Below are positions 6,183 through 45,159 of a stretch of DNA of 64,000 bases, piece after piece. Position 1 is the first letter of the stretch; every line of letters starts with the position of its first letter. A program made the translations under genes and the position numbers. Location: NCBI GenBank assembly GCA_017622925.1, contig JAGAQC010000062.1:1-64000 (forward strand), in the 5' to 3' direction. This DNA comes from Ruminococcus sp. GTDB taxonomy: Bacteria; Bacillota; Clostridia; Oscillospirales; Ruminococcaceae. The notes under the pieces were generated by a model that did no database searches, was not told where the DNA came from, and saw nothing but the letters and a program-made list of their open reading frames with translations.

Positions 6183-6395
6183 AGAGCCTGTGCAGAATCT
6201 CCCCGTGCACGTCAGCTCTGCATATAGCATTGTCATCCAAATCAAAGATTTGGGACACTGCTTATTTTCGGCAAATTTTGCCGATCGCTACGTTGAAAAA
6301 GTTCACCATACGACAGTATGCTTTCACTTTTTCGCCTTGCTCTCGACAAAATTATGCTCGAAAATCCGCACACGCTGAGATTCTGAACAGGCTCT
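6183..6395. mobile_element. MITE-like element, family 1 (213 bp)
   Basis: Imperfect terminal inverted repeats AGAGCCTGTGCAG and CTGAACAGGCTCT bound the element. It shares with the 16.8 kb copy a core reading CACCATACGACAGTATGCTT and TTATGCTCGAAAATCCGCA, and carries about 50 extra bases near the left end. It has no coding capacity, so it would be mobilised by a transposase elsewhere. It begins just after one AGGAGGT sequence (6167-6173) and ends just before another (6404-6409), both resembling ribosome binding sites. Confidence 0.75.
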
Positions 6396-8141: not shown

Positions 8142-8180
8142 AAAAGCCTGCGTTCTCTTTTGAACACAGGCTTTAGTTTT
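8142..8180. terminator. Bidirectional terminator between convergent operons
   Basis: AAAGCCTG pairs with CAGGCTTT around a 14-nt loop, with an A run on one side and TTAGTTTT on the other. It can stop the DUF4179 transcript on the plus strand and the ECF transporter transcript on the minus strand. Confidence 0.85.
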
Positions 8181-10815
8181 AATCCAATAATCTATATTTT
8201 ACCTTTAATCTGTCAAGCTTTTGGAGCATTGGTTCTGCGCCGTACCACAGGAAGATAACGGTAGCGGCTGCGTGGATAAGGTCCATAGGAAAGCCTGTAA
8301 CATAATAGGTCATTATTATTTTGAGGTTCAGCGTTTCGCTTCCCCATATCAAAGCCGATGCGGGATTCATAATTCCGCCGTAGATAAGAATGACCGCCAA
8401 AGCTCCGAAAATACACATAGAAAGCCTTGTTCTCCTCATTAGCCCTTTGCGGAACAATATGCCTGCAAGAAATCCTATCATGCCCATTGCAAACATCTGA
8501 AAGGGAGTCCACGGACCCTGCGAAAAAAGTATATTTGAAGCGAGCATGGTGACTGCCCCGACAAGAAAGCCCGTTTCGCCGCCGAGCGCGACCCCCGATA
8601 TTATTGTAAGAGCCGCAACGGGTTTGAATTGCGGAAGCATGAAAAATGCCGCGCGTCCCGCAATTCCCAAAGCGCATAACGAGGCTATTGTAACAAGCGT
8701 GCGAGCCTGCGGTTTTCTGCCCTCAAAAATCATGAAAAAGGGCAGCATACATTCTGTCAGTATTGCGAGCGAGATCGCATAATATTGCTTTACCCCGACA
8801 TAGTAAACGCCGATGTACAAGGTCAGCGGTATAAGCATGAGTATCAGCGAACCTGCGGCGACCGTTCTCTTGGAAAGCCGTCTTTTTTCCTTTGGAGTTT
8901 GTACCGCTGCCGACTGATCGGATTTTCGATAAACCGAAAGCGCGCATATAAAAAGCGCGAAAATTAATGCGGCATATATTTTAAGCTGTTCTCTGCCCGA
9001 ATCAGTTATCCCAAAAGCATTAACGCTTTTGGTGAGGTCGGTTATTTTTGTTGCGTAAAGAAATATCAGTAATGCCGAAGTTCCCGATAAAGCGGCGGTA
9101 ATTTTTCTCCACACGGGCAGCTTATCGGTACTTTTGGGACTGACAGTTTCCTGCATTATCAGTTCGGGCAGATCGCATTTTAACGGCTTATTTTCAATCG
9201 GTTCACCGCCGCATGCCGATATAACGTCGTGGACGGTAATTGCGTTTGGTATCACGTCCCTTGCGATACGGTTTGCGGAGGTCGTATAAAAACTGTTTCC
9301 GCTGAAAAATTTTTCGGGCGTACCCTCCGTTACAATGCTCCCGTAAAAAAACATGGCGCACCGCTGCGAATATTCCGCGCAAAACTCGATGTCATGGCTG
9401 ACCATTATTATTGTTTTTCCACGTTCAAGGAGAGTTTCGAGAATGTCGCCGAAAAGCTGTTTGAACTCCGCATCGAAGCCTTTTGTAGGCTCGTCAAGGA
9501 GCAGTATATCGGCATCGGTCATGAGAATTTTTGCAAGAGCAGCTCTCTGCTGTTCGCCTCCCGACAGGTCGTATGGGTGACGGTCAAGAAGCTTTTCAAG
9601 CCTGCAAAGAGCTGTGACATAAGCAAACCGATTCTGCCCGATCTCCTTTGAAAGTCCCTTTGTCATTTCAAGCAAGTCCTCGCGGACAGTTTTTTTAACA
9701 AATAATGTCTGCGGATTTTGCGGCAGAGAGGCTGTTTTTCCGTTTACTGCGACCTCTCCACGATACGGCTTTTTTAGTCCGCTTATAAGCTTTAGCGTTG
9801 TTGTTTTGCCTGCGCCGTTTCCGCCTAATACAGCTAAAAACTCGCCTTTTCGCACTTTCAGGTCAAGTCCTCGTATAACGTCTGTTCCGTTTTTTGTGTA
9901 GCGAAACCATGCTTCTGAAACGTCAACCGCAGTTTCGTCCGAACATCGCGTGATACGCCTTGTGGGAAGTTCGGAAACATGATTTTTTTCCGCAAATTCA
10001 TTGAACCATTTTTTGCCCTCCGCAGCCGTTACGGGACATTCCGCGTCCGACTTCACCGCCGCCCATATCCGCATCGGAGCAGGCATTGCAAGGAACATTT
10101 TGTTTTCTGCGGATTTCAGCATACCGCCGACCTCTTTCGGAGTACCCGTGCAGATTATTTTTCCCTTTTCCATTACGGCTGTTCGGTTTGCCATCGGGAA
10201 CGCTTCTTCAAGGCGATGTTCCGTCAGTATGACCGTTATTCCAAGCTCGGCGTTTATCTTTTTCAGCACGTTAAGAAATTCCGAAGCGGCTATGGGGTCA
10301 AGCTGACTTGTAGGCTCGTCAAGTATCAGAATATCGGGGTGCAGCGTCATTACAGACGCCAGATTCAAAAGCTGCTTCTGACCTCCCGAAAGCTCCGTCA
10401 CGCTTTTGTGAAACCATTTCTCAATGCCGAAAAACGCCGCCATTTCCGCAGTACGCCCACGAATTTCCGCCGTACCGTATCCAAGACTTTCAAGTCCGAA
10501 TGCCAGCTCGTGCCAGACCTTATCCGTAGCTATCTGATTTTCGGGGGATTGTCCCACAAATCCGATCTTTTCCGATTGCGTTCTTCGCTGTACCGTATCG
10601 AGCGGCAGTCCCTCGAACATAATTTCCCCCGACCTGATACCGTTCGGGGCAAGGTCGGTTTTAAGCTGTCGGAGCAGGGTCGATTTTCCGCTGCCCGATG
10701 TTCCGCAGAGGACAAAAAATTCGCCCTGTTCAACGGTCAGACTTACATTATCAAGAGCCTTTTCGGTGCATTCTGGATATGAAAAGCTCAGATCTTTGAT
10801 CTCAACGACCGCCAT
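8179..10815 (-). CDS. ECF transporter triple fusion: two ATPases and an S component (probable cobalamin importer)
   Basis: A protein of about 878 residues joining modules that are normally separate in energy-coupling-factor transporters. ATPase 1 (about 1-235) has GTSGSGKST, LSGGQKQLLNL and ILILDEPTS. ATPase 2 (about 275-500) has GGNGAGKTT near 330, LSGGEQQRAAL and LLLDEPTKG. A hydrophobic C-terminal part (about 595-870) resembles a substrate-binding S component (GRAAFFMLPQFKPVAAL, GGETGFLVGAVTMLASN). The start at 10815 has GGAGGG; the longer open frame runs back into ecfT. Cobalamin as substrate is inferred from the upstream riboswitch and the DUF4430 neighbours. It is the last gene before the terminator. 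Confidence 0.88.
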   Translation of the reverse strand: MAVVEIKDLSFSYPECTEKALDNVSLTVEQGEFFVLCGTSGSGKSTLLRQLKTDLAPNGIRSGEIMFEGLPLDTVQRRTQSEKIGFVGQSPENQIATDKVWHELAFGLESLGYGTAEIRGRTAEMAAFFGIEKWFHKSVTELSGGQKQLLNLASVMTLHPDILILDEPTSQLDPIAASEFLNVLKKINAELGITVILTEHRLEEAFPMANRTAVMEKGKIICTGTPKEVGGMLKSAENKMFLAMPAPMRIWAAVKSDAECPVTAAEGKKWFNEFAEKNHVSELPTRRITRCSDETAVDVSEAWFRYTKNGTDVIRGLDLKVRKGEFLAVLGGNGAGKTTTLKLISGLKKPYRGEVAVNGKTASLPQNPQTLFVKKTVREDLLEMTKGLSKEIGQNRFAYVTALCRLEKLLDRHPYDLSGGEQQRAALAKILMTDADILLLDEPTKGFDAEFKQLFGDILETLLERGKTIIMVSHDIEFCAEYSQRCAMFFYGSIVTEGTPEKFFSGNSFYTTSANRIARDVIPNAITVHDVISACGGEPIENKPLKCDLPELIMQETVSPKSTDKLPVWRKITAALSGTSALLIFLYATKITDLTKSVNAFGITDSGREQLKIYAALIFALFICALSVYRKSDQSAAVQTPKEKRRLSKRTVAAGSLILMLIPLTLYIGVYYVGVKQYYAISLAILTECMLPFFMIFEGRKPQARTLVTIASLCALGIAGRAAFFMLPQFKPVAALTIISGVALGGETGFLVGAVTMLASNILFSQGPWTPFQMFAMGMIGFLAGILFRKGLMRRTRLSMCIFGALAVILIYGGIMNPASALIWGSETLNLKIIMTYYVTGFPMDLIHAAATVIFLWYGAEPMLQKLDRLKVKYRLLD

Positions 10816-11684
10816 ATTTTGTCCTCCCTCCGATCTATTATAATTGGCGTCATGCAAAGAAAAAAATATACGATAAAAAAGCATATCGTGAACGGCTCGG
10901 TCAGCGTTCCCTTGATAGAGGGGAAATAACGCCATTTCAAGCCCTTTGCCAATATTCCGCAGATAAGAAAAACGCCGCAGAATATCAGCCATGTCAACGC
11001 TGTTTTGTCCCTGCTGTCGAATCTGTATATCGAAAACGCGGTCCGCCCTTTTAAGCCGTAACCTCGGCTTTTCATGCTTTCAGCCGTTTCAACGGCATTT
11101 TCAAGCGACCATGTTATCATAATTGAAACGATAGTGACAGCGTTTTTTATACGCCTGAAAATACTGCCGTTGGAAACGTCCCGACCTATGCAGAATTGCG
11201 TGTCACGAACAGCTTCAAGCTGAGACATGAATTTCGGCACGAACCGCAGCGTCATACTTAATACGAGCGACAGTGAGGGGATAAATTTTCCGAAAAGATA
11301 AACGAACTTGTCGGAGGTCATGACGGCTGTATAGCAGCGAAACCACAGCGTTACAGCTCCGAGCATGACAGCGGCGGATATTCCGTAAATAATGCTTTCG
11401 AGAGTGAGCGGATTGCCTGACGGAAGATAGCGTAATATGGTCATTCCCTCATGGCTGAATGCCGGATTTATAATTGCGGCGGCAAGCGTCATGGGCAGCA
11501 GAAATTTCAGACAGAACATCAGCGTTCTCTTGCCGTCAAGGTATACGGCGTACATCAGCGCGGCTGTTAGAGAGATAACAAGCATGACGGGGTGCATTAT
11601 AAACATTGAAAATGCAAAAACAAGTCCGAAAAACAGAAAATTTACGGTCGGGTGAAAGGACGAAAACGTATCGCGGTACATCAT
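10788..11684 (-). CDS. ecfT: ECF transporter transmembrane subunit EcfT (CbiQ family)
   Basis: A 298-residue integral membrane protein of the EcfT/CbiQ family, the scaffold linking ATPases to the S component. Several hydrophobic helices are visible (FLFFGLVFAFSMFIMHPVMLVISLTAALMYA region). The coupling region includes AVETAESMKSRGYGLKGRT, matching the conserved A-R-G motifs of EcfT that bind the ATPases. The ATG overlaps the stop of the preceding DUF4430 gene (ATGA). Its last 28 bases overlap the fusion gene downstream, so the three genes are translationally coupled. Confidence 0.9.
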   Translation of the reverse strand: MMYRDTFSSFHPTVNFLFFGLVFAFSMFIMHPVMLVISLTAALMYAVYLDGKRTLMFCLKFLLPMTLAAAIINPAFSHEGMTILRYLPSGNPLTLESIIYGISAAVMLGAVTLWFRCYTAVMTSDKFVYLFGKFIPSLSLVLSMTLRFVPKFMSQLEAVRDTQFCIGRDVSNGSIFRRIKNAVTIVSIMITWSLENAVETAESMKSRGYGLKGRTAFSIYRFDSRDKTALTWLIFCGVFLICGILAKGLKWRYFPSIKGTLTEPFTICFFIVYFFLCMTPIIIDRREDKIWRSLRSKI

Positions 11685-12853
11685 GTTCCCGACACCGCAT
11701 AACCGCCGCCGACATCGTTTCCGAGGTCGCAGGTATACCGCCATTCCACTGTTTCTCCGTCGGTGAGCTGATAACGGCTGCAACCGTAATTGGGGTACCA
11801 GCCGTTTACACGGTACATCCAGCCGGACAAACTTCCGCAGTCAAATTCGTACAGATTATTTATCCCCTCGACATATGCGCTGTTGTAAATAGGAGTCCAC
11901 GAAGCCTCCATGTGAATATTATTTTCCTTGCAGATTCGCTGTAATACGTCGTATACCGATTCTCCCTCATAGAATTGCACCTCGCAGGCAGGGAGAATAA
12001 TTCCGTCGGCAGGCAGTACGTCGATTTTTTCGGGATTCAGTTCGGCAAGATTATTGAGAATAGTGGAGCATTCTATGGAAAAAGTGCAGGTATAGGTCTT
12101 GCTGCTGTCTATTTGGGTATCTTCGGGCTCTACAGGCATTGGTCTGCCCTCGGGAACAGGGTCAGTCTTGTACTTGTCCTGCTCAGTCGCCGAGCCGTCC
12201 GAAATAACACGATTGCCGCCGCCCGTAACAGCGTTCGGAGTATCAGGCTCTACAGGCGTAAGATAAGGGTCGGTTTTTGTATTTTTTGTTTCGGTCGAAA
12301 CGGGAGAAGCTTTTGTTTCCGTTGGCGTTTCGGCAATTATCGGAGCGTTTTCGCTTTCGTTATCGGCTCGGACAATAAATTCTCCAACGCTGTTGTCAAC
12401 GGAAAAATTGATAATGCTGTTTTCGCTCCCCGTTACAGAAGCTCCGCAGACAGCCTTGTTGCCGCTGTCATATACCGTAGCGTTTTGGCAATCCCAGTTT
12501 GAATTGAGGTGTACGGACAGTACGGGAGCAAAACCAAAGCCGTCCTCCGATCTGAAGCTTAATCCCGAGGAACGCTCCTCCTGTTTTTCATTAATTTCAA
12601 CGGCTAAATTCAAGGTTTTCGGCTCGGGAATATCGTCGCCGAAAATGACCCATTCGTAATCGCAGCCGTTGGAGTTCCCCTTAAAGGTCACAACTGCGCT
12701 GTCGTCTTTTATCTGCTTGAAAATTGAAACGTCAACTATGCCGTTTTCGGGAATTTCCATAGTTCCCTGATAATTTTTTCCGCCTTTAAGGTCGCAGCCG
12801 CAGAGAAGAAACATGATGCAGATAAATACAGGAAAAATTTTTATACGCTTCAC
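11681..12853 (-). CDS. DUF4430 (transcobalamin-like C-terminal domain) lipoprotein
   Basis: A 390-residue lipoprotein (lipobox FLLCGC). A beta-rich domain (about 25-165) and a Thr/Pro/Glu-rich linker (about 170-245) precede a C-terminal DUF4430 domain (about 250-390). Its hallmarks are GESVYDVLQRICKENNI, LSGWMYRVNGWYPNYG and VEWRYTCDLGNDVGG. DUF4430 corresponds to the small beta domain of animal transcobalamin and intrinsic factor. It starts at GTG overlapping the stop of the cohesin-like gene (GTGA). It probably holds cobalamin at the membrane for the ECF transporter encoded downstream; that role is inference from the domain and the B12 riboswitch. Confidence 0.85.
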   Translation of the reverse strand: MKRIKIFPVFICIMFLLCGCDLKGGKNYQGTMEIPENGIVDVSIFKQIKDDSAVVTFKGNSNGCDYEWVIFGDDIPEPKTLNLAVEINEKQEERSSGLSFRSEDGFGFAPVLSVHLNSNWDCQNATVYDSGNKAVCGASVTGSENSIINFSVDNSVGEFIVRADNESENAPIIAETPTETKASPVSTETKNTKTDPYLTPVEPDTPNAVTGGGNRVISDGSATEQDKYKTDPVPEGRPMPVEPEDTQIDSSKTYTCTFSIECSTILNNLAELNPEKIDVLPADGIILPACEVQFYEGESVYDVLQRICKENNIHMEASWTPIYNSAYVEGINNLYEFDCGSLSGWMYRVNGWYPNYGCSRYQLTDGETVEWRYTCDLGNDVGGGYAVSGT

Positions 12854-13491
12854 TCCTTGACCACCACCTTTCCGTTTTCTGTTTTAAGCGTATTTTTAAT
12901 GCTTGCAAGGCTTTTGCTTTCGTCCGACGCCGCAAAAGCTGCGTCCGCAAATGTCAGGTCGTACACATCTCCCGCCTTTGCGCTGCCTCTTAAACGGAAC
13001 GACAGCCGCATAAGCAAGCTGTCGTCCTCGTCAAGGCAATCTTTGGAAAATGCGTATTTTCCGCCTGTCAGGTCAAGATACATAACGTTTATCTGTCCTA
13101 TCTCGTTGGAGCGTTTTACGTCAACGCTCCAATCGGGGAGCTGATACGAACTTCCGTCTGCGCGTTCATCGCCGAGGGTCATGACGTTTCCCTCCTCGAT
13201 GCCCATAAATTCAAGGTGTGAAGAATCGAAAACGATGCTCAGGCTTGCGGCAGGATAAAGAACGTCGCCCAAGTCGGAAAGCTCAACGTCAACAGTAAAG
13301 TTTTCCTTAGCGGATATACTTTGTTTTGCAGGCGTTACAATAGTCAGTGTCGGAATATTTTTATCGGTATGCTTTTTCTTAATGATGATAAACAGTAATA
13401 TTATCAGAACAATGATAAGAACGGCAATTACAGCGATAAAAATCTTCTTTTTCTTTGATAGTTTTTTCTTTTGCGTTGCTTCATTTTCCAT
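12850..13491 (-). CDS. Membrane-anchored cohesin-like domain protein
   Basis: A 213-residue protein with a Lys-rich cytoplasmic head, one transmembrane helix (about 18-38, IFIAVIAVLIIVLIILLFIII) and a single extracellular beta-sandwich. The domain matches the cohesin pattern: ENFTVDVELSDLGD, SIVFDSSHLEFMGIEEG, then LMRLSFRLRGSAKAGDVYDL and a closing GKVVV strand. Cohesins bind dockerins; the gene just upstream encodes a dockerin protein and another dockerin protein (GH5) is encoded nearby. I infer that it tethers the B12-binding protein to the membrane. The cohesin call rests on pattern only and needs a profile search. Confidence 0.7.
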   Translation of the reverse strand: MENEATQKKKLSKKKKIFIAVIAVLIIVLIILLFIIIKKKHTDKNIPTLTIVTPAKQSISAKENFTVDVELSDLGDVLYPAASLSIVFDSSHLEFMGIEEGNVMTLGDERADGSSYQLPDWSVDVKRSNEIGQINVMYLDLTGGKYAFSKDCLDEDDSLLMRLSFRLRGSAKAGDVYDLTFADAAFAASDESKSLASIKNTLKTENGKVVVKE

Positions 13492-13506
13492 GATAAAAAT
13501 TTCCTT

Positions 13507-16203
13507 TTATTCCACGGGTGAATAAGCCATAGCCGCTTTATTTACAATGATGTACTCGGAGCCGTGAACGAACTGCTCAACGATTCCCAAAGCGTCGAAT
13601 GTATTTATCCTTGAATCGGAGTTCACGTTCAGTCGGAGTATTTCAATATCTGTGGGAGCGTCGGTTTTTCTCAGCCATGTGTTTACCGAATTAAGAGCGT
13701 CCTGCGCGTTGATAACGCCGTCGCCGTTTACGTCGCCGAAGTTCAGGGAATCTCCTGCTTTTGTGCCTATCGTGAAGTTGTCGGCATTAACAAAGCTTTC
13801 GACCGCAATAGAACTGTCAACAAGCGCAACGTAGCTCATAACGCCTGTTTTCTGCGTTATCTCATCGCTGTAAAGGAAGTTATAACTGTTTGTGCCGTCA
13901 TTGTATGTAAGTTCGGACTGTTTGTCAAGATTTGCGACAGATACGCAAACAGCCATTTTGTTTTCGGGGATAAGGTCGATCCCGTCGCCCTGATAAAGTA
14001 CGCATGCGCTGAACGATACGGATTCCACAACATTAACAGTTCCGCTTGCTTTAGAAGTATCTACAACATTGATAGAAACTTCGCTTTCGGAATCGGAGCT
14101 GAACTTCATGGACATTCCCGAAACAGCGACATTGAGCTTATCTGTTGTCAGTCTGTCCTTTGCTTCAAAACCGATGATAAAAAATTCCGCAGGGAAGTCC
14201 GTTCCGCTGATAGAAATGCTGTTGTTCTTCTCTGGGTCGAAATAAACGATACGGAGCTTGCCCGTTGCTTCTTCAAGATTATAGCTTATCTGTCCGCCTG
14301 AAACGCGTTCGCCCATTGTAACGCTTGTTACCGCAAGGGACTCGGGAACGTCAACGATACAGTCCATAAGCTTATAATTCGCTTCATTGTCCCAGCCGTC
14401 AATATTTACAACAGCGTTGAACGTCGTACCCTTTTTATTGCTTATTTCCTGCGGCAGACCGAGAGTTGCGGTAAGACCGTCAGCCTTTTCGCTGTCAAAG
14501 CTTACATCGGACATATCGTAAAGGGAAGTCTGACCGTTCAGGAATCTGTTGTATGCGGCAAGGGCATAGATCGCCTGATCTGTAGCCATTGCGTTTCCTG
14601 CCGTATCAGCCGTATGCTTGAACATTCTCGAATCAGCATCATAGAAAGTGAGAAGTGCGTCAACAGCGGAATTGCCGTTCTTGACGAATCTTTCATCTGT
14701 ATCGGGATCTATTCCGAGAGTGGTACATGCAACGATGACCTGCGCTATGCTTTCTGAATTTATCGAACCCCATGAAGTATAGCCGCCTGTTTCCTGCTGG
14801 ATCGTCGAAAGCGCGCTGATACCCTTATCAACGGCAGCTTTTACCTTGCTGTCGTCCGTATATCTTGCAAGAGCCTGAATAGTCATACTTGTCATGTCAG
14901 GGTCTGCGGCAGTTCCAGACATTGCCCAGCCGCCGTCCGCAGTTTGCTTGCTGAGAAGATAATCAATGCACTGTTGACGGATAGTAGGGTCTGTTGTCTG
15001 ATAATTATTTGAATCGAGGGCGATCAATGCCCATACAGGACCGTTGATACCCTGTTTTTTTATCCAACTGAAATCATTGTACGGCGTAATGAGATTCCAG
15101 TCACCCACGCTTTCGGCATTTTTGCCGATAGAAGAAAGCGCAACGATAAGACGAGAATTTTCCGTTGATTTGACTTTATGCAAAGCTCCGTTCATATTAA
15201 CGGACGCCGCTTTTTCATTTACGGTTGCAACGATGCGGTCATAGTAATCCGTGAAATATTTGTTGTTCTTGTCGAAGTAGCCTCCGCGAGCAAGGCAAAG
15301 TACGCTCCATTCGCCTGCTGTAGTGCCGAAAACAGGGGCGTTCACGGTTTCTGAAAGCTGTGCCATAGCTTCGTTGAGAATTGCCGAAACGTCCTGAGAC
15401 TGCGCAGGAGCGGAAGCTTCTTTTTTTACTGTGATAGTATATGTATTTGCTTCACCGTCGGTATTCATGCTGAGCGAGCCTTCATAGTTGCACTCGACAA
15501 TAATTTCCGTGCCGTCGGAAACGGGTACTTGCGCAGTACGCTTATAAGCTGTATCGCCTATTCTTGTGCGTACCTGATAGTTCTTGTTGCTTGCCGTCGG
15601 AGTTATTGTGAGCTTGTCCGCATCGGACGGAACAGTGAGAGTATATTCATGCGTATTTTTATCGAAAGCAGGGGAAAGCTCGCCCTTATCAAAAGCAATA
15701 TCCTTGATCGTTGAGTCGCTGTTTTCCCAACTGCCGCCCAGATCGTCGCCGTATGAGCAGGTATACATTACGCGTATCTCATCGCCTGCTTCAAGTTCGC
15801 CCTCGGCAACAGTCCAACTGTCAAAGCCTTCGTTGGTGAACCAGTCGTTGAGAGTACCCATCCAGCCCGACATAAAACCGCCGTCAAATTCGCTCAGACC
15901 GTCAATACTTGAAATATAATTGTTTTCCGCGCCCTCTGCCGTATGACCGTCTGCTTCAAGAGCGTCAATGATACAGGTCATCATGGTGGAATTTTCATCG
16001 AGCGTTACCCACGTATCAACGAGCGTGCCGTACCAGAAGCTGTCGTTCCAGTCCTCCGATTCGGGAGTAAAGGTAGTGTTTTCAACAATTACGTGAACTG
16101 CGTCGTCATGCTGCGAAACGGCAACGGTTGTAAATGCCGCGCATGGGACGAAGTTCACCGCTGCGGCACACGCCGTCAGAAAGCTGACAAATTTTTTCTT
16201 CAT
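13507..16203 (-). CDS. Secreted transcobalamin-like protein: DUF4430, alpha/alpha toroid, cohesin-like region and dockerin
   Basis: An 898-residue exported protein (signal peptide about 1-30). Modules in order: a DUF4430 domain (about 37-155, GGFMSGWMGTLNDWF and VMYTCSYGDDLGGSW); a cadherin-like beta sandwich (about 165-268); an alpha/alpha-toroid of the prenyltransferase/squalene-oxidase repeat type (about 272-562, CIDYLLSKQTADGGWAMSG and DQAIYALAAYNRF); a cohesin-like beta region (about 570-715); and a C-terminal dockerin (about 820-885) with calcium loops DVNGDGVINAQDAL and NVNSDSRINTFDAL. Toroid plus DUF4430 is the architecture of animal intrinsic factor, here with the beta domain first. 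RBS AAGGAG. The B12 riboswitch upstream supports a cobalamin-binding role. Confidence 0.85.
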   Translation of the reverse strand: MKKKFVSFLTACAAAVNFVPCAAFTTVAVSQHDDAVHVIVENTTFTPESEDWNDSFWYGTLVDTWVTLDENSTMMTCIIDALEADGHTAEGAENNYISSIDGLSEFDGGFMSGWMGTLNDWFTNEGFDSWTVAEGELEAGDEIRVMYTCSYGDDLGGSWENSDSTIKDIAFDKGELSPAFDKNTHEYTLTVPSDADKLTITPTASNKNYQVRTRIGDTAYKRTAQVPVSDGTEIIVECNYEGSLSMNTDGEANTYTITVKKEASAPAQSQDVSAILNEAMAQLSETVNAPVFGTTAGEWSVLCLARGGYFDKNNKYFTDYYDRIVATVNEKAASVNMNGALHKVKSTENSRLIVALSSIGKNAESVGDWNLITPYNDFSWIKKQGINGPVWALIALDSNNYQTTDPTIRQQCIDYLLSKQTADGGWAMSGTAADPDMTSMTIQALARYTDDSKVKAAVDKGISALSTIQQETGGYTSWGSINSESIAQVIVACTTLGIDPDTDERFVKNGNSAVDALLTFYDADSRMFKHTADTAGNAMATDQAIYALAAYNRFLNGQTSLYDMSDVSFDSEKADGLTATLGLPQEISNKKGTTFNAVVNIDGWDNEANYKLMDCIVDVPESLAVTSVTMGERVSGGQISYNLEEATGKLRIVYFDPEKNNSISISGTDFPAEFFIIGFEAKDRLTTDKLNVAVSGMSMKFSSDSESEVSINVVDTSKASGTVNVVESVSFSACVLYQGDGIDLIPENKMAVCVSVANLDKQSELTYNDGTNSYNFLYSDEITQKTGVMSYVALVDSSIAVESFVNADNFTIGTKAGDSLNFGDVNGDGVINAQDALNSVNTWLRKTDAPTDIEILRLNVNSDSRINTFDALGIVEQFVHGSEYIIVNKAAMAYSPVE

Positions 16204-16409
16204 AATTTTTTCTCCTTAATATTTCGTTTTTTGCCTTGCCGAGGTTTCTTTTCTTTCAGACCCGCCGCTTCCAATGCTCTGTTCCACGGACCGAGCCTGC
16301 TTTTTATCCTTGCAACGTCTGCGCCCTCAAAATCCTCTTTTTTCGGCAGACGTTCAAGCTCGTCAAATTTTTTCCTCAGCATTTCTACAGCCATTTCTTC
16401 GGTAAACAT
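16200..16409 (-). CDS. Small protein with a homing-endonuclease-associated (HNH) repeat-like segment
   Basis: A 69-residue ORF with a perfect AGGAGG six bases before the ATG, and a stop that overlaps the ATG of the 898-residue protein (ATGA). Both signs indicate that it is translated. The sequence AVEMLRKKFDELERLPKKED, then RIKSRLGPWNRALEAAG, fits the short helical repeat found near HNH and homing endonucleases. The tail is very basic (KEKKPRQGKKRNIKEKKL). It is the first gene after the B12 leader. Its function is unknown; it could regulate or simply couple translation. Confidence 0.65.
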   Translation of the reverse strand: MFTEEMAVEMLRKKFDELERLPKKEDFEGADVARIKSRLGPWNRALEAAGLKEKKPRQGKKRNIKEKKL

Positions 16410-16423
16410 ATCGACCTCCTATG

Positions 16424-16579
16424 TACTCTCCGCTATTGCAAAATATCCGTTAATGCAGACATAAAATCCGTCTGTCTGCGTCATCCTCCTCACCATACGA
16501 CAGTATGCTTTCGTCGTCTTCCTTGACATACGAATTTTCTGTTCGGCATTCTTTGGACATTTTGCAATAGCAGAGAGTA
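16424..16579. mobile_element. MITE-like element, family 3 (156 bp)
   Basis: Terminal inverted repeats TACTCTCCGCTATTGCAAAAT and ATTTTGCAATAGCAGAGAGTA (with small differences) enclose a core GTCTGTCTGCGTCATCC, a CATACGACAGTATG palindrome and CTTGACATACGAATT. The core is shared with the copy at 60.1-60.3 kb. It lies directly between the T run of the riboswitch terminator and the AGGAGG of the small ORF, so it is transcribed in the leader. Confidence 0.75.
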
Positions 16580-16616
16580 AAAAGCAAAAAAGCGTCCCCG
16601 CTAAAAACGAGAACGC
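16580..16616 (-). terminator. Intrinsic terminator in the B12 leader, probable expression platform
   Basis: On the minus strand GCGTTCTCG pairs with CGGGGACGC (two G-U pairs) around a TTTTTAG loop, followed by TTTTTTGCTTTTT. It lies between the cobalamin aptamer and the first gene, so it is the likely off-switch of the riboswitch. It is about 310 nt from the aptamer because a family 1 element lies between them. Confidence 0.65.
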
Positions 16617-16752
16617 ACAACTGAATATCAGGGCATAACAGCAAAAACTCCTTATTACAGCAAAAAAAGCGAAAAGAGCCGAAATATAAGGAGAATAAAT
16701 ATCTCTGATAAATCGGTTGCACTCTTCTCGCCCAAGCCCGTGATAAACCATC

Positions 16753-16913
16753 AGAGCCTGTTTAGTATCTCCCCGCACGCGTAATTCGGCAAAATCTGCC
16801 GATTACTGCGTTGAAAAAACTCACCATACGACAGTATGCTTTCGCTTTTTCGCCTTGTACTCGACAAATTTATGCTCGAAAATCCGCATACGCCGAGATA
16901 CTAAACAGGCTCT
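16753..16913. mobile_element. MITE-like element, family 1 (161 bp), inside the B12 leader
   Basis: Terminal inverted repeats AGAGCCTGTTTAG and CTAAACAGGCTCT are perfect over 13 bp. The core carries CGGCAAAATCTGCCG, CATACGACAGTATG and TATGCTCGAAAATCCGCATA. It begins ten bases after the 3' box of the cobalamin aptamer on the transcribed strand, separating the aptamer from the terminator. The stretch between this element and the terminator (16617-16752) holds no convincing gene. Confidence 0.8.
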
Positions 16914-16923
16914 TAGAAATTAC

Positions 16924-17125
16924 GGCAGGTCTCCTGACTAATGACAAAGCAGCGTAATATAACGCCGCGCGAAAAACGCCTTCTCAGATCTTCGCCCGCA
17001 GACTAAATCCAATGGCTGTTGTTTTTCATTCATCAAACACAGTAATGGCGGTTGTTCCGGATTTGAACCGGATTCCCTTTTGATCTACTCAGTCAACAAC
17101 TTTTCAAACCGTATTTTCTTTCTTG
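16924..17125 (-). ncRNA. Cobalamin (vitamin B12) riboswitch aptamer
   Basis: Read on the minus strand, the region has the conserved cobalamin aptamer parts in order: GGGAATCCGGTTCAAATCCGG (G-to-T changes in loop positions), then ACCGCCATTACTG, a GCGGGCGAAGATCTGAGAAGG segment, and the B12 box AGTCAGGAGACCTGCC at 16939-16924. This box is essentially diagnostic. Binding of adenosylcobalamin or another cobalamin normally represses downstream genes. The controlled genes are the DUF4430/toroid/cohesin/ECF operon ending at 8179. Confidence 0.93.
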
Positions 17126-17141
17126 CTATTCAATTTGTTTT

Positions 17142-17170
17142 AGTATACCACTTTTGAGATTATTTGTCAA
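17142..17170 (-). promoter_or_regulatory. Promoter of the B12-riboswitch operon
   Basis: On the minus strand TTGACA, a 17-nt spacer and TATACT. The predicted start near 17135 lies immediately upstream of the aptamer. Confidence 0.8.
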
Positions 17171-18154: not shown

Positions 18155-18198
18155 ATTTTTCCGCGCCTATTGCAATTTTGCAGCGGATATGGTATAAT
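18155..18198 (+). promoter_or_regulatory. CCGCG-TTGCAA promoter block upstream of the GH5 cellulase
   Basis: A T run, CCGCGCCTATTGCAA, a 17-nt spacer and TATAAT, 64 bases before the cellulase start codon. Strong match to the shared promoter block also found before the DUF4430 gene at 27465 and the ArsC-like gene at 43533. Confidence 0.7.
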
Positions 18199-18261
18199 AT
18201 AATTAATATGAACAAATTATGTATGCAACGATGTGAATTTGTTTTAAGAGAGGGAATATTT

Positions 18262-19995
18262 ATGAATTTAATTATTAAAAAGGCGGCGGCAGCTATAGCG
18301 GCGGTCGTAACGCTCGGTACGGCTTTATCGGTCAAGCTCCCGACCGAAGTTTCCAACGCTGCGCCCGACGAGTATCATGACGACTGGCTTCACGTAAACG
18401 AGAACGCCGAGATCGTTGATATGAACGGCAACCCCGTGTGGCTTACGGGCTGTAACTGGTTCGGCTACAACGTGGGAAGTCAGGTCTTTGACGGCGTATG
18501 GTCGCAGAACATGCACAAAATGCTCAACGAAATAGCCGACCACGGCTTTAATCTGCTTCGTGTGCCAATGTCCACTGAAATTCTGCTTCAATGGAAAAAC
18601 AACGAACCCGACCCCATGATAAAAATAAACGAGTACGAAAACCCCGAGCTTACTCTCGAGGGGGTCGAGGGCGGTACGCCTATGTACAGCTTTGATATAT
18701 GGAACAAGGCTGTTGAATGGTGCAGAGAAAACGGCATTAAAATCATGATAGATATTCACAGCGCAACTACCGCATCGAGCGGACATCAGGTGCCGTTGTG
18801 GTATGACAGCAATTTCTCGACCGAGGACTGGATAGAGGCTCTTACGTGGTTTGCCGATTACTATAAGGACGACGATACGGTCTTGGCGATCGACCTGAAA
18901 AACGAACCTCACGGAAAGAATGACGGTCAGGGAATGGCTATATGGGACGATTCTACCGCTCCGAATAACTGGAAGCACGCCGCCGAGACTTGCGCCGAGG
19001 CGATACTCGACATTAATCCGAATCTTCTCATTATGGTCGAGGGAATCGAGGTATATCCGAAATTTGAGATAGGCAGCACATGGGATTCTCCCTCCGTTGA
19101 CTATGCGCATTACGGCGATGAAAGCAAACAGCCTTATCACGGAGCATGGTGGGGCGGAAATTTCCGCGGCGCAAGAGATTATCCTATTGATTTTGGCAAG
19201 TATCAGTCGCAGCTTGTGTATTCTCCCCACGATTACGGTCCGCTTGTATGGCAGCAGACGTGGTTTGATAAGGACTTTACCCGTCAGACGCTCCTTGACG
19301 ATTACTGGTACGACACATGGGCGTACCTTGTCGAGGAAAATATTTCGCCGCTTCTTATGGGCGAATGGGGCGGATTTATCGACGAGGAACACGACCCCAC
19401 AGGCGATAATCTCAAATGGATGACTTTGCTCCGTGATTACATGATAGAAAAGCGCATTCACCATACTTTCTGGTGCTTCAATGAGAACTCGGGCGACACG
19501 GGCGGACTTGTCTATGATAATTTCGGCAAATGGGACGAGGCTAAATACGCTTTCGTTGAACCCTCTCTCTGGCAGGACGAAAACGGCAAGTTTATCAGCC
19601 TTGACCATAAGATAAAGCTGGGTCAGTCGGGCAACGGTATTTCCCTTTCCGACTACTACAGCGGAAGTCCTCAGCCGCCAACGCAGGATAAAACAGACCC
19701 GACCCCGACAGCAGAGCCTACGACCGTTCCCACAAAGCCTGTTGAAGTTCCAACAAGCTCGGATAAGGAGCTTTTAGGCGACGCTAACTGCGACGGACAG
19801 GTGACTATTGCCGATTCTACGGCGATTTTGCAGGCTCTCGGAAATCCCGACAAATACGGACTTTCCGAACAGGGCGCAAAAAATGCCGACTGCTGCGACC
19901 CCGGAAGCGGTATTTTGCCGTCAGACGCGCTTGCGATACAGAAAATAGACGCTAAGGTAATATCAAAGCTCCCCGAGATAACTGCTGAGAAATAA
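18262..19995 (+). CDS. GH5 endoglucanase with dockerin (cellulosomal)
   Basis: A 577-residue secreted glycoside hydrolase family 5 enzyme, expected to cleave beta-1,4-glucan in cellulose or related polymers. After a signal peptide (about 1-30) the catalytic domain (about 40-455) shows the acid/base Glu in AIDLKNEPHG, VYSPHDYGP, and the nucleophile Glu in LLMGEWGGF. A Pro/Thr linker (about 475-495) leads to a C-terminal dockerin with DANCDGQVTIADSTAIL and a divergent second repeat (DCCDPGSGILPSDALAI). The start at 18262 follows AGAGAGGG; upstream ATGs lack an RBS. It stands alone in its own transcription unit. Confidence 0.92.
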   Translation: MNLIIKKAAAAIAAVVTLGTALSVKLPTEVSNAAPDEYHDDWLHVNENAEIVDMNGNPVWLTGCNWFGYNVGSQVFDGVWSQNMHKMLNEIADHGFNLLRVPMSTEILLQWKNNEPDPMIKINEYENPELTLEGVEGGTPMYSFDIWNKAVEWCRENGIKIMIDIHSATTASSGHQVPLWYDSNFSTEDWIEALTWFADYYKDDDTVLAIDLKNEPHGKNDGQGMAIWDDSTAPNNWKHAAETCAEAILDINPNLLIMVEGIEVYPKFEIGSTWDSPSVDYAHYGDESKQPYHGAWWGGNFRGARDYPIDFGKYQSQLVYSPHDYGPLVWQQTWFDKDFTRQTLLDDYWYDTWAYLVEENISPLLMGEWGGFIDEEHDPTGDNLKWMTLLRDYMIEKRIHHTFWCFNENSGDTGGLVYDNFGKWDEAKYAFVEPSLWQDENGKFISLDHKIKLGQSGNGISLSDYYSGSPQPPTQDKTDPTPTAEPTTVPTKPVEVPTSSDKELLGDANCDGQVTIADSTAILQALGNPDKYGLSEQGAKNADCCDPGSGILPSDALAIQKIDAKVISKLPEITAEK

Positions 19996-23739: not shown

Positions 23740-23902
23740 AGAGCCTGTTCAGTACCTCGACGTGTGCGGATTTTCGAGCATAAATTTGTCGAGTACAAGG
23801 CGAAAAAGCGAAAGCATACTTGGTGTATGGTAAGCTTTTTCAACGCAGTAATCGGCAAAATTTGCCGAAAAGACGTGCGCGGAGAGGTGCTGAACAGGCT
23901 CT
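23740..23902. mobile_element. MITE-like element, family 1 (163 bp)
   Basis: Perfect 13-bp terminal inverted repeats AGAGCCTGTTCAG and CTGAACAGGCTCT. It is inverted relative to the 16.8 kb copy: the core reads TGCGGATTTTCGAGCATAAA, then AAAGCATACTTGGTGTATGG and CGGCAAAATTTGCCG. It lies 45 bases upstream of trmL, between any upstream promoter and the trmL ribosome binding site. Confidence 0.8.
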
Positions 23903-27464: not shown

Positions 27465-27881
27465 ATGGAAAAAAAGACAAATTCAAAAAAACTCGTTATA
27501 AGTATTGTGGGAATTGTCGTTCTCATTGCGCTTTGTGTGGTAATGTGGCTCGTTCACGATTCCGCGCAGAAAGAGCCTGATGAGAACATAAAGACTATCA
27601 CGGTACAGGTGAAGTCCGAACGTGACAGCTACTCCTTTGAGCAGGAATACACAACCGATGCCAAGTGTTTTGGAGACTTCCTTGAAACGGCAGACCTCAT
27701 AGGCTTTGACGACACGGAATACGGGCGTTACATAACTTCCGTACAGGGCATGGAGGCTAACGATGAGGAGCAGTCATGGTGGAGTATTTCGGTAAACGGA
27801 GAATCCGCCGTAACGGGAGTTGACGAGATCGTAGTGGAGGACGGCTCGGTTTACCTGCTTGAACTGAAAATCGGATGGTAA
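27465..27881 (+). CDS. Membrane-anchored DUF4430 protein (138 aa)
   Basis: A short protein with a cytoplasmic Lys-rich start, one transmembrane helix (about 10-29, VISIVGIVVLIALCVVMWLV) and a single extracellular DUF4430 domain (about 43-138). The domain shows FGDFLETADLIGFDDTEYGR, WWSISVNGESAVTG and a closing DGSVYLLELKIGW. Its stop overlaps the start of the S-component gene (ATGGTAA), so the two act together. By analogy with the operon at 8-17 kb it may hand a cobalamin-like ligand to the S component. No riboswitch is visible here, so the ligand is uncertain. Confidence 0.8.
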   Translation: MEKKTNSKKLVISIVGIVVLIALCVVMWLVHDSAQKEPDENIKTITVQVKSERDSYSFEQEYTTDAKCFGDFLETADLIGFDDTEYGRYITSVQGMEANDEEQSWWSISVNGESAVTGVDEIVVEDGSVYLLELKIGW

Positions 27882-28375
27882 AAAAAGAACGGGTACTTCG
27901 GCTGACCCGTATCGCTGTCATGGGAGCGTTGCTGTACACGGCGCAGGTCGCGTTGGCGTTTCTCCCGAACATAGAGATAGTAACGCTGTTGATAGTGATC
28001 TTCACGAAAAATCTCGGACGCGAGGGGACGGCGGCATGTTTTGTATATGTCTGCCTGACCCTGCTTATCGGCGGTTTTGGATTGTGGTGGGTGACTTATT
28101 TGGTGGTGTGGCCGTTGTTTTCGCTTGTAGTCTACGGACTGCGCCGCATAGACAGTTGGCTGATGTGGGCGGTCATTGACGGCGCATTCGGACTGTGCTT
28201 CGGCGCGCTGTTTGCCGTGCCGTATATTTTTGTATCGCCTGCGTATGCCCTGAGCTACTGGATAGGCGGCATTCCCTTTGACATTATTCACTGTATCGGG
28301 AACTTTTCGGCGGCGGTAATATTAGGCAAGGCTCTTGACTGCTCTTTCAAGTACATACTTAAATATGTTAAGTAA
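27875..28375 (+). CDS. ECF transporter S component
   Basis: A 166-residue integral membrane protein with five or six helices and the S-component start LTRIAVMGALLYTAQVALAFLP. It also has GFGLWWVTYLVVWPLFSLVV, WAVIDGAFGLCFGALFAVPY and GIPFDIIHCIGNFSAAVILG. No ATPase or EcfT gene is adjacent, so it would use a shared energising module. It is translationally coupled to the DUF4430 gene. The C-terminal GIPFD-I-H segment resembles GFPMDLIHAAATV in the fused S domain at 8179-10815, suggesting related substrates. Confidence 0.85.
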   Translation: MVKKERVLRLTRIAVMGALLYTAQVALAFLPNIEIVTLLIVIFTKNLGREGTAACFVYVCLTLLIGGFGLWWVTYLVVWPLFSLVVYGLRRIDSWLMWAVIDGAFGLCFGALFAVPYIFVSPAYALSYWIGGIPFDIIHCIGNFSAAVILGKALDCSFKYILKYVK

Positions 28376-44939: not shown

Positions 44940-44947
44940 TAGAGTAT

Positions 44948-45117
44948 GATCTTCGGGGCAGGGTGAGATTCCCTACCGACAGTATACTTTTCTTTTTTGA
45001 GATAGAGGAAAGTATGTAGCCTGTGAGCCGCTTTTGCGGTTGATTCGGTCAAATTCCGAAGCCGACGGTGAGTGCGGAGCTGTTCGCGCAAGTCCGGATG
45101 AGAGAGGATCGTCTGCT
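44948..45117 (+). ncRNA. FMN riboswitch (RFN element)
   Basis: The conserved RFN parts appear in order: ATCTTCGGGGCAGGGTGAGA and TTCCCTACCGACAGTA, a variable stem (TACTTTTC...GAAAGTATG), GTAGCCTGTGAGCC, then GATTCGGTCAAATTCCGAAG with CCGACGGTGAG, and AGTCCGGATGAGAGAGGATC at the end. FMN binding should promote the terminator that follows and shut off ribD-ribE-ribBA-ribH. Confidence 0.96.
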
Positions 45118-45132
45118 TCTATAGACAGATTT

Positions 45133-45159
45133 TTCCCCGAATTTTCGGGGATTTTTTTG
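45133..45159 (+). terminator. FMN-riboswitch terminator
   Basis: CCCCGAA pairs with TTCGGGG around a short loop, followed by ATTTTTTT, 11 bases before the ribD start codon region. It is the expression platform of the riboswitch. Confidence 0.85.

Follow-up and report, generated by a model that had tools for sequence, protein, structure and literature searches.

The energy-coupling factor (ECF) transporter ECF-CbrT of Lactobacillus delbrueckii (PDB 6FNP) imports cyanocobalamin and cobinamide, and the gene for CbrT lies in the order nrdJ-cbrS-cbrT-pduO (PMC5997447). A table in PMC9963975 carries the annotation label "additional lipoprotein component of putative cobalamin ECF transporter", and in the same paper a DUF4430 gene adjoins rtpR. 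Here we describe an operon on the minus strand (positions 8179-17170) of a stretch of 64,000 nucleotides, the window, from a gut Ruminococcus (contig C39 of a 2.5-Mb genome in 76 contigs, 87.8% complete). By profile it shares with ECF-CbrT the family of its S component, and it likewise has EcfT and two ATPase domains; like the label in PMC9963975, which is a label and not a tested function, it ties a lipoprotein to a cobalamin ECF transporter. It differs from ECF-CbrT in being a single riboswitch-led operon in which the ATPases and the S component are fused, and which adds a secreted carrier, a cohesin and a lipoprotein. We suggest, with a probability of about 0.62, that it serves the acquisition of cobamides (vitamin B12), by means of a CbrT-type importer, a carrier docked on the operon's own cohesin apart from the cellulosome, and a lipoprotein.

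Animal B12 carriers consist of a helical toroid with a DUF4430-type domain behind it. Transcobalamin-1, transcobalamin-2 and intrinsic factor share this DUF4430-type C-terminal domain with the operon, the carrier of which, unlike them, has DUF4430 before the toroid, bears a dockerin and belongs to a bacterial surface; the toroid is unmatched by sequence. BtuH and BtuG of Bacteroides are also surface-associated B12-binding accessory proteins from B12-uptake loci, a likeness that we draw by description, but they belong to Gram-negative TonB-type uptake, unlike this operon, and the binding domain of BtuH is reported to lack known structural homologues (PMC8941943). Calcium-type dockerins and cohesins likewise tether secreted proteins in cellulosomes and in the planctosome, a proposed non-cellulosomal use of the pair (PMC6461901), whereas the present case concerns vitamin uptake and a one-cohesin membrane protein encoded in the same operon. 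In the open-licence literature searched we found no paper joining DUF4430/transcobalamin-like or toroid-DUF4430 carriers with a bacterial ECF operon, and none on dockerins with cobalamin riboswitches or in B12 uptake.

The operon and its importer

A cobalamin riboswitch and an intrinsic terminator are followed by six closely packed genes, most of whose ends overlap, in the order HNH_repeat protein, carrier, cohesin, DUF4430 protein, EcfT and EcfA-EcfA'-S fusion. The closest named relative at this operon, L080, is a metagenome-assembled genome (MAG) of an uncultured Ruminococcus whose carrier is 91% identical over the full length. Aptamer, terminator, domains and gene order were computed directly and are as follows.

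16907..17128, minus strand: cobalamin riboswitch aptamer (RF00174, 87.3 bits, cut-off 31.5, E-value 3.6e-20)
16592..16616, minus strand: intrinsic terminator, likely the expression platform; an 11-pair stem, then TTTTTT
16200..16409, minus strand: HNH_repeat protein, 69 residues (PF18780, 44.9 bits, cut-off 26), between riboswitch and carrier
13507..16203, minus strand: secreted carrier, 898 residues, with DUF4430, cadherin-like domain, toroid, weak cohesin-like domain, conserved segment and dockerin
12850..13491, minus strand: membrane-anchored cohesin, 213 residues (PF00963, 24.8 bits), with an N-terminal hydrophobic stretch seen in the sequence
11681..12853, minus strand: DUF4430 protein, 390 residues, likely a lipoprotein (PF14478, 63.9 bits, cut-off 23.8; LLCGC seen by eye)
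10788..11684, minus strand: EcfT (CbiQ PF02361, 26.4 bits, cut-off 25)
8179..10815, minus strand: EcfA-EcfA'-S fusion, 878 residues (TIGR04520, 324.9 bits, cut-off 315)

With a score of 87.3 bits we rejected a chance match to the riboswitch family, and the aptamer is the sole RF00174 match found in the source genome at its given completeness. The terminator hairpin has a folding energy of -16.9 kcal/mol (z -2.48), and its sequence is kept in L080. A sequence-only reading of this DNA had described a riboswitch-headed, B12-regulated operon, with which the RF00174 score agrees. The five genes that it listed are all present, but it overlooked the first one, the 69-residue HNH_repeat gene, and its count was one short; we also moved the likely coding-sequence starts to 11684 for EcfT and 10815 for the fusion, by analogy with L080. 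The profile searches that it had proposed for the five proteins put DUF4430, dockerin, cohesin and EcfT over their cut-offs and left the toroid (Prenyltrans) below cut-off in the single sequence. Its complete ECF transporter, and its dockerin and membrane cohesin within one operon, are borne out by the results that follow.

ABC_tran matches the fusion in two stretches, that is, two ECF ATPase domains, and the S domain occupies 8182-8727. When a profile of this domain from 28 loci was compared with PDB sequences, the best match was ECF-CbrT (6fnp, 2.4e-18), followed by 4hzu (2e-5) and then RibU (3.4e-4). A nickel/cobalt importer was considered, as EcfT matches CbiQ, but was rejected on the match of the S profile to CbrT. 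By the features tested, the importer is a CbrT-type ECF system, which by analogy would import cobamides. Three lines point to a B12-type cargo, namely the aptamer, the CbrT-like S component, and a DUF4430 profile that weakly matches transcobalamins and intrinsic factor.

A second candidate B12 pair lies at 27465-28375 on the plus strand, where the end of the gene for a membrane-anchored DUF4430 protein of 138 residues (45.3 bits) overlaps that for an S component of 166 residues, the best PDB match of which is also CbrT (6fnp, 2.6e-6). No riboswitch was found at this pair in the scan of the window.

The carrier, the lipoprotein and the cohesin-dockerin pair

The secreted DUF4430/toroid/dockerin protein and the DUF4430 lipoprotein of the sequence-only reading were both recovered by profile. 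The carrier exceeds the Pfam cut-offs for DUF4430 (32.0 bits, cut-off 23.8), Cadherin-like (39.4 bits) and Dockerin_1 (32.4 bits, cut-off 22.9), and both type I calcium-loop repeats of its dockerin are visible by eye; the lipoprotein has the stronger DUF4430 match given above. The toroid, in which a D-x-D-x-T motif is kept, scores 25.3 bits for SQHop_cyclase_C and 21.8 bits for Prenyltrans in the single sequence, both below cut-off. The weak cohesin-like domain reaches 24.0 bits, and a conserved segment precedes the dockerin.

A profile of the DUF4430 domain (27 rows) matched eight distinct PDB sequences at an E-value of 10 or less, four of which are human cobalamin carriers: transcobalamin-1 (TCN1) at 0.0042, transcobalamin-2 (TCN2) at 0.31, and intrinsic factor at 0.65 and 0.66. 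The remaining four were a DUF4430 protein of Ruminococcus gnavus (0.0034) and three unrelated sequences. Each of the carrier matches is weak alone, and the weight that we give them comes from four of the eight being human B12 carriers. The likeness to animal carriers that had been proposed from the sequence thus stands for the DUF4430 domain and not for the toroid, the profile of which leads to terpene cyclases. We presume the lipoprotein labelled in the table mentioned at the outset to be a DUF4430 protein, a link that the label does not itself make.

For the cohesin, the PF00963 score is marginal alone (cut-off 24.1), and two orthologues reach 33.2 and 27.6 bits. The family profile gave four PDB matches at an E-value of 0.1 or less, the best at 0.0044; two of them are chains named endoglucanase, and the other two a scaffoldin and a scaffoldin-anchoring protein. 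We followed the pair in 80 related loci, which are the best 80 of 582 confirmed relatives and therefore biased towards the window; they span Paenibacillus, Ureibacillus, Clostridium, Pseudoflavonifractor and many MAGs. Linkage and sequence identities were computed directly. The dockerin profile matches 18 toroid proteins among these loci, and a cohesin gene is directly next in 17 of them; conversely, all 17 cohesin genes of the operon family directly follow a dockerin-bearing carrier. In a tree built from 88 toroids there are at least eight changes of the dockerin label, at least five of which are forced by well-supported branches, and together with the linkage this indicates that the carrier's tail and the cohesin gene are gained and lost, or move, as a unit. 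The variant with a cohesin is rare, being present in three of 295 order-level genomes, the source genome included.

Against 40 dockerins of the source genome, extracted by profile as the best-scoring and some weaker ones of 78 genome matches, the operon dockerin reaches no more than 31% identity (median 24%), but its identity to 18 other operon dockerins is 52-98%, and the pair therefore looks private to the operon. It has AQ/TF where many dockerins of its genome have SS/SS or ST. The cohesin shares 41-98% identity with 14 operon cohesins, and no more than 28% with four other cohesins of the genome (a comparison from which L009 was left out). In the source genome, contigs C46 and C55 hold equal-score dockerin matches in mirrored order, which are probably one region assembled twice.

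From this architecture we infer the following mode of action. At high B12 the vitamin would bind the riboswitch and the leader terminator would stop transcription, whereas at low B12 transcription would read through the leader. The operon would then yield the CbrT-type importer (EcfT, two fused ATPase domains and S component) and three outer proteins, namely the secreted carrier with DUF4430 and alpha-alpha toroid, the DUF4430 lipoprotein and the membrane-anchored cohesin. The C-terminal dockerin of the carrier would most likely plug into the cohesin encoded by the adjacent gene, which would hold the carrier on the cell surface and separate from the cellulosome. Docked carrier and lipoprotein would both bind cobamides outside the cell and pass them on to the S component, as the architecture suggests; the sequence-only reading had the relay run from the carrier to the lipoprotein and from there to the S component, which would be one possible order.

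Related operons and accessory features

In Clostridia, operons that combine toroid, DUF4430 and ECF genes are frequent, and they often follow a cobalamin riboswitch. The toroid profile is matched in 96 of 291 class-level genomes and in 72 of 181 genera, a count of toroids and not of operons, and carrier matches occur in 27 of 60 relatives' genomes, some by dockerin or DUF4430 only. EcfT lies within 8 kb downstream at 50 of the 63 toroid loci that have at least 3 kb of downstream sequence; among the 80 loci, a separate downstream DUF4430 gene is present in 51 and an S component in 49. At L084, L091 and L098, toroid genes without a dockerin match are followed within the contig by a protein of 563-569 residues that matches ATP-binding cassette (ABC) ATPases, and not by ECF genes.

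Cobalamin riboswitches were sought at these loci in several ways. Of a separate set of 23 toroid loci, ten show an over-cut-off match to the cobalamin clan close to the operon, 11 show one below threshold on the strand of the operon (E-values 9e-5 to 1.8) and two lack any, one of the two being at a contig end; on the opposite strand of 13 upstream stretches from this set, no clan match was among the matches listed (six overlapping ones excluded). In 50 genomes of the 80-locus set, RF00174 exceeds its cut-off somewhere in 43, and in 36 a match maps by coordinates to the operon strand, no more than 2 kb ahead of the first toroid gene. The B12 box has at most four mismatches in 16 positions in 30 of these 36 mapped riboswitches, against a median of seven or eight in random stretches. 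A regular expression for the aptamer, applied to the 80 upstream stretches, matched the operon strand in 23 and the other strand in three; it is strict and misses matches above 100 bits, and a second such check, with 21 of 50 loci, was likewise too strict.

Carriers of related operons are held by other means. Eight of 27 aligned fused toroid-DUF4430 proteins have surface-layer (S-layer) homology domains, and in relatives within the genus the gene immediately ahead of the toroid gene encodes a secreted protein, some 310 residues long, with SPKTG at its end (at least ten listed cases, by eye). Given such S-layer domains and SPKTG-type neighbours, the simplest reading is that the dockerin substitutes for another anchor.

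Further elements lie upstream of the operon's first gene.

17142..17170, minus strand: promoter-like site TTGACA-17-TATACT, with 11/12 consensus bases and TG before the second hexamer
16754..16912, minus strand: insert lying between aptamer and terminator, with GAGCCTGTTTAGTATCTC as its terminal inverted repeat; absent from L080
16422..16584 (ends approximate), minus strand: second leader insert; absent from L080

The promoter-like site is suggestive only, as the scan gave six sites against 2.6 in shuffles. Both inserts carry terminal inverted repeats and may disturb the switch. The repeat GAGCCTGTTTAGTATCTC has five matches in the window at two or fewer mismatches, with 0.00 expected; outside the insert it occurs at 144-161, 6377-6394 and 23741-23758.

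The stop codon of the HNH_repeat gene overlaps the ATG of the carrier gene, and the protein occurs once in the source genome. HNH_repeat is associated with homing endonucleases. Relatives are found in 25 of 106 scanned sources, the window included (two pairs of sources are identical or almost identical DNA); all 25 are on the operon strand and 21 lie between -97 and +124 bases relative to the start of the toroid gene. Our guess is that it might be a leader-encoded, nucleic-acid-binding regulator.

Elsewhere in the window, a secreted cellulase of glycoside hydrolase family 5 (GH5; 173.3 bits), with a C-terminus that is dockerin-like by eye, is encoded at 18178-19995 on the plus strand, divergent from the operon. 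A flavin mononucleotide (FMN) riboswitch (44945-45113, plus strand, 90.2 bits) lies upstream of a gene series that begins at 45159.

Alternative explanations and wider meaning

Several observations count against a cobamide acquisition operon as we describe it. EcfT is lacking at 13 of the 63 toroid loci with at least 3 kb downstream, and no upstream RF00174 was mapped on the same strand at 14 of the 50 loci, some of which lack upstream sequence; the mapping was done by coordinates without contig identity, and the B12 box is poor in six of the 36 mapped riboswitches. The S domain does not reach the Pfam cut-offs (ECF_trnsprt 27.0 against 30.7), and the DUF4430 matches to human carriers are weak (0.004-0.66). 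Neither the toroid profile nor that of the fused toroid-DUF4430 protein listed a transcobalamin among its PDB matches, which were terpene cyclases, and the whole-lipoprotein profile found no transcobalamin or intrinsic factor in PDB. At L117 a dockerin match is present and no cohesin was seen, the contig ending inside the gene. The source genome gave no match to CbiD, an absence that is not firm in a genome about 12% incomplete. It does encode a MetH-like protein (TIGR02082, 394.7 bits, a fragment below cut-off) with four MetH Pfam domains over their cut-offs, and the two results together fit a B12 user that is not a B12 maker, within the limits of genome completeness.

Instead of B12 itself, the operon might take in another corrinoid (for example cobinamide or an analogue), or chiefly a precursor. 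ECF-CbrT imports cobinamide as well as cobalamin (PMC5997447), and the class of the aptamer argues only for a cobamide as the end product; we regard this as unlikely, yet as an alternative to be taken seriously. We find it rather unlikely that the S component and the lipoprotein import cobamides while the toroid protein is an adhesin, or an enzyme with the terpene-cyclase fold, that is merely co-regulated with uptake. Squalene-hopene cyclases carry a DxDD motif, which the D-x-D-x-T motif of the toroid resembles, and the toroid profile finds these cyclases at 9e-18 and no transcobalamin. On the other hand, the toroid gene is a steady partner of DUF4430 and CbrT-type ECF genes, its product is secreted, and in about 18 relatives from the genus and order DUF4430 stands behind the toroid in the same protein, which is the order of the animal carriers.

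A B12 importer whose dockerin plugs the carrier into a cellulosomal scaffoldin, the operon cohesin serving something else, seems to us quite improbable. The 78 dockerin matches and the scaffoldin cohesins elsewhere in the source genome would provide for it, but the low identity of the operon dockerin to those of its own genome, its different AQ/TF residues, the adjacent cohesin gene in 17 of 18 cases and the resemblance of that cohesin to operon cohesins rather than to the genome's others all speak for docking within the operon, and on the dockerin identities we set aside cellulosomal docking as the main role. We favor a cobamide acquisition operon with its own docking pair.

Tentatively, and at somewhat less than even odds, we suggest that Firmicutes have widespread surface cobamide carriers built from the two modules of animal transcobalamins and tied to CbrT-type importers, with an exchangeable anchor (S-layer domains, sortase-type neighbours, or a private cohesin-dockerin pair in Ruminococcus and others), and that the animal carriers may share ancestry with them. 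The capture of B12 by Gram-positive gut bacteria is poorly known, and the operon offers concrete candidates for it, with a single cargo that can be tested. It would bring in a bacterial relative of the DUF4430 domain of animal carriers in a clear genetic context, and cohesin-dockerin tethering would gain vitamin capture as a further use; if this is true, the cohesin-dockerin variant would be a vitamin-capturing counterpart of the cellulosome.

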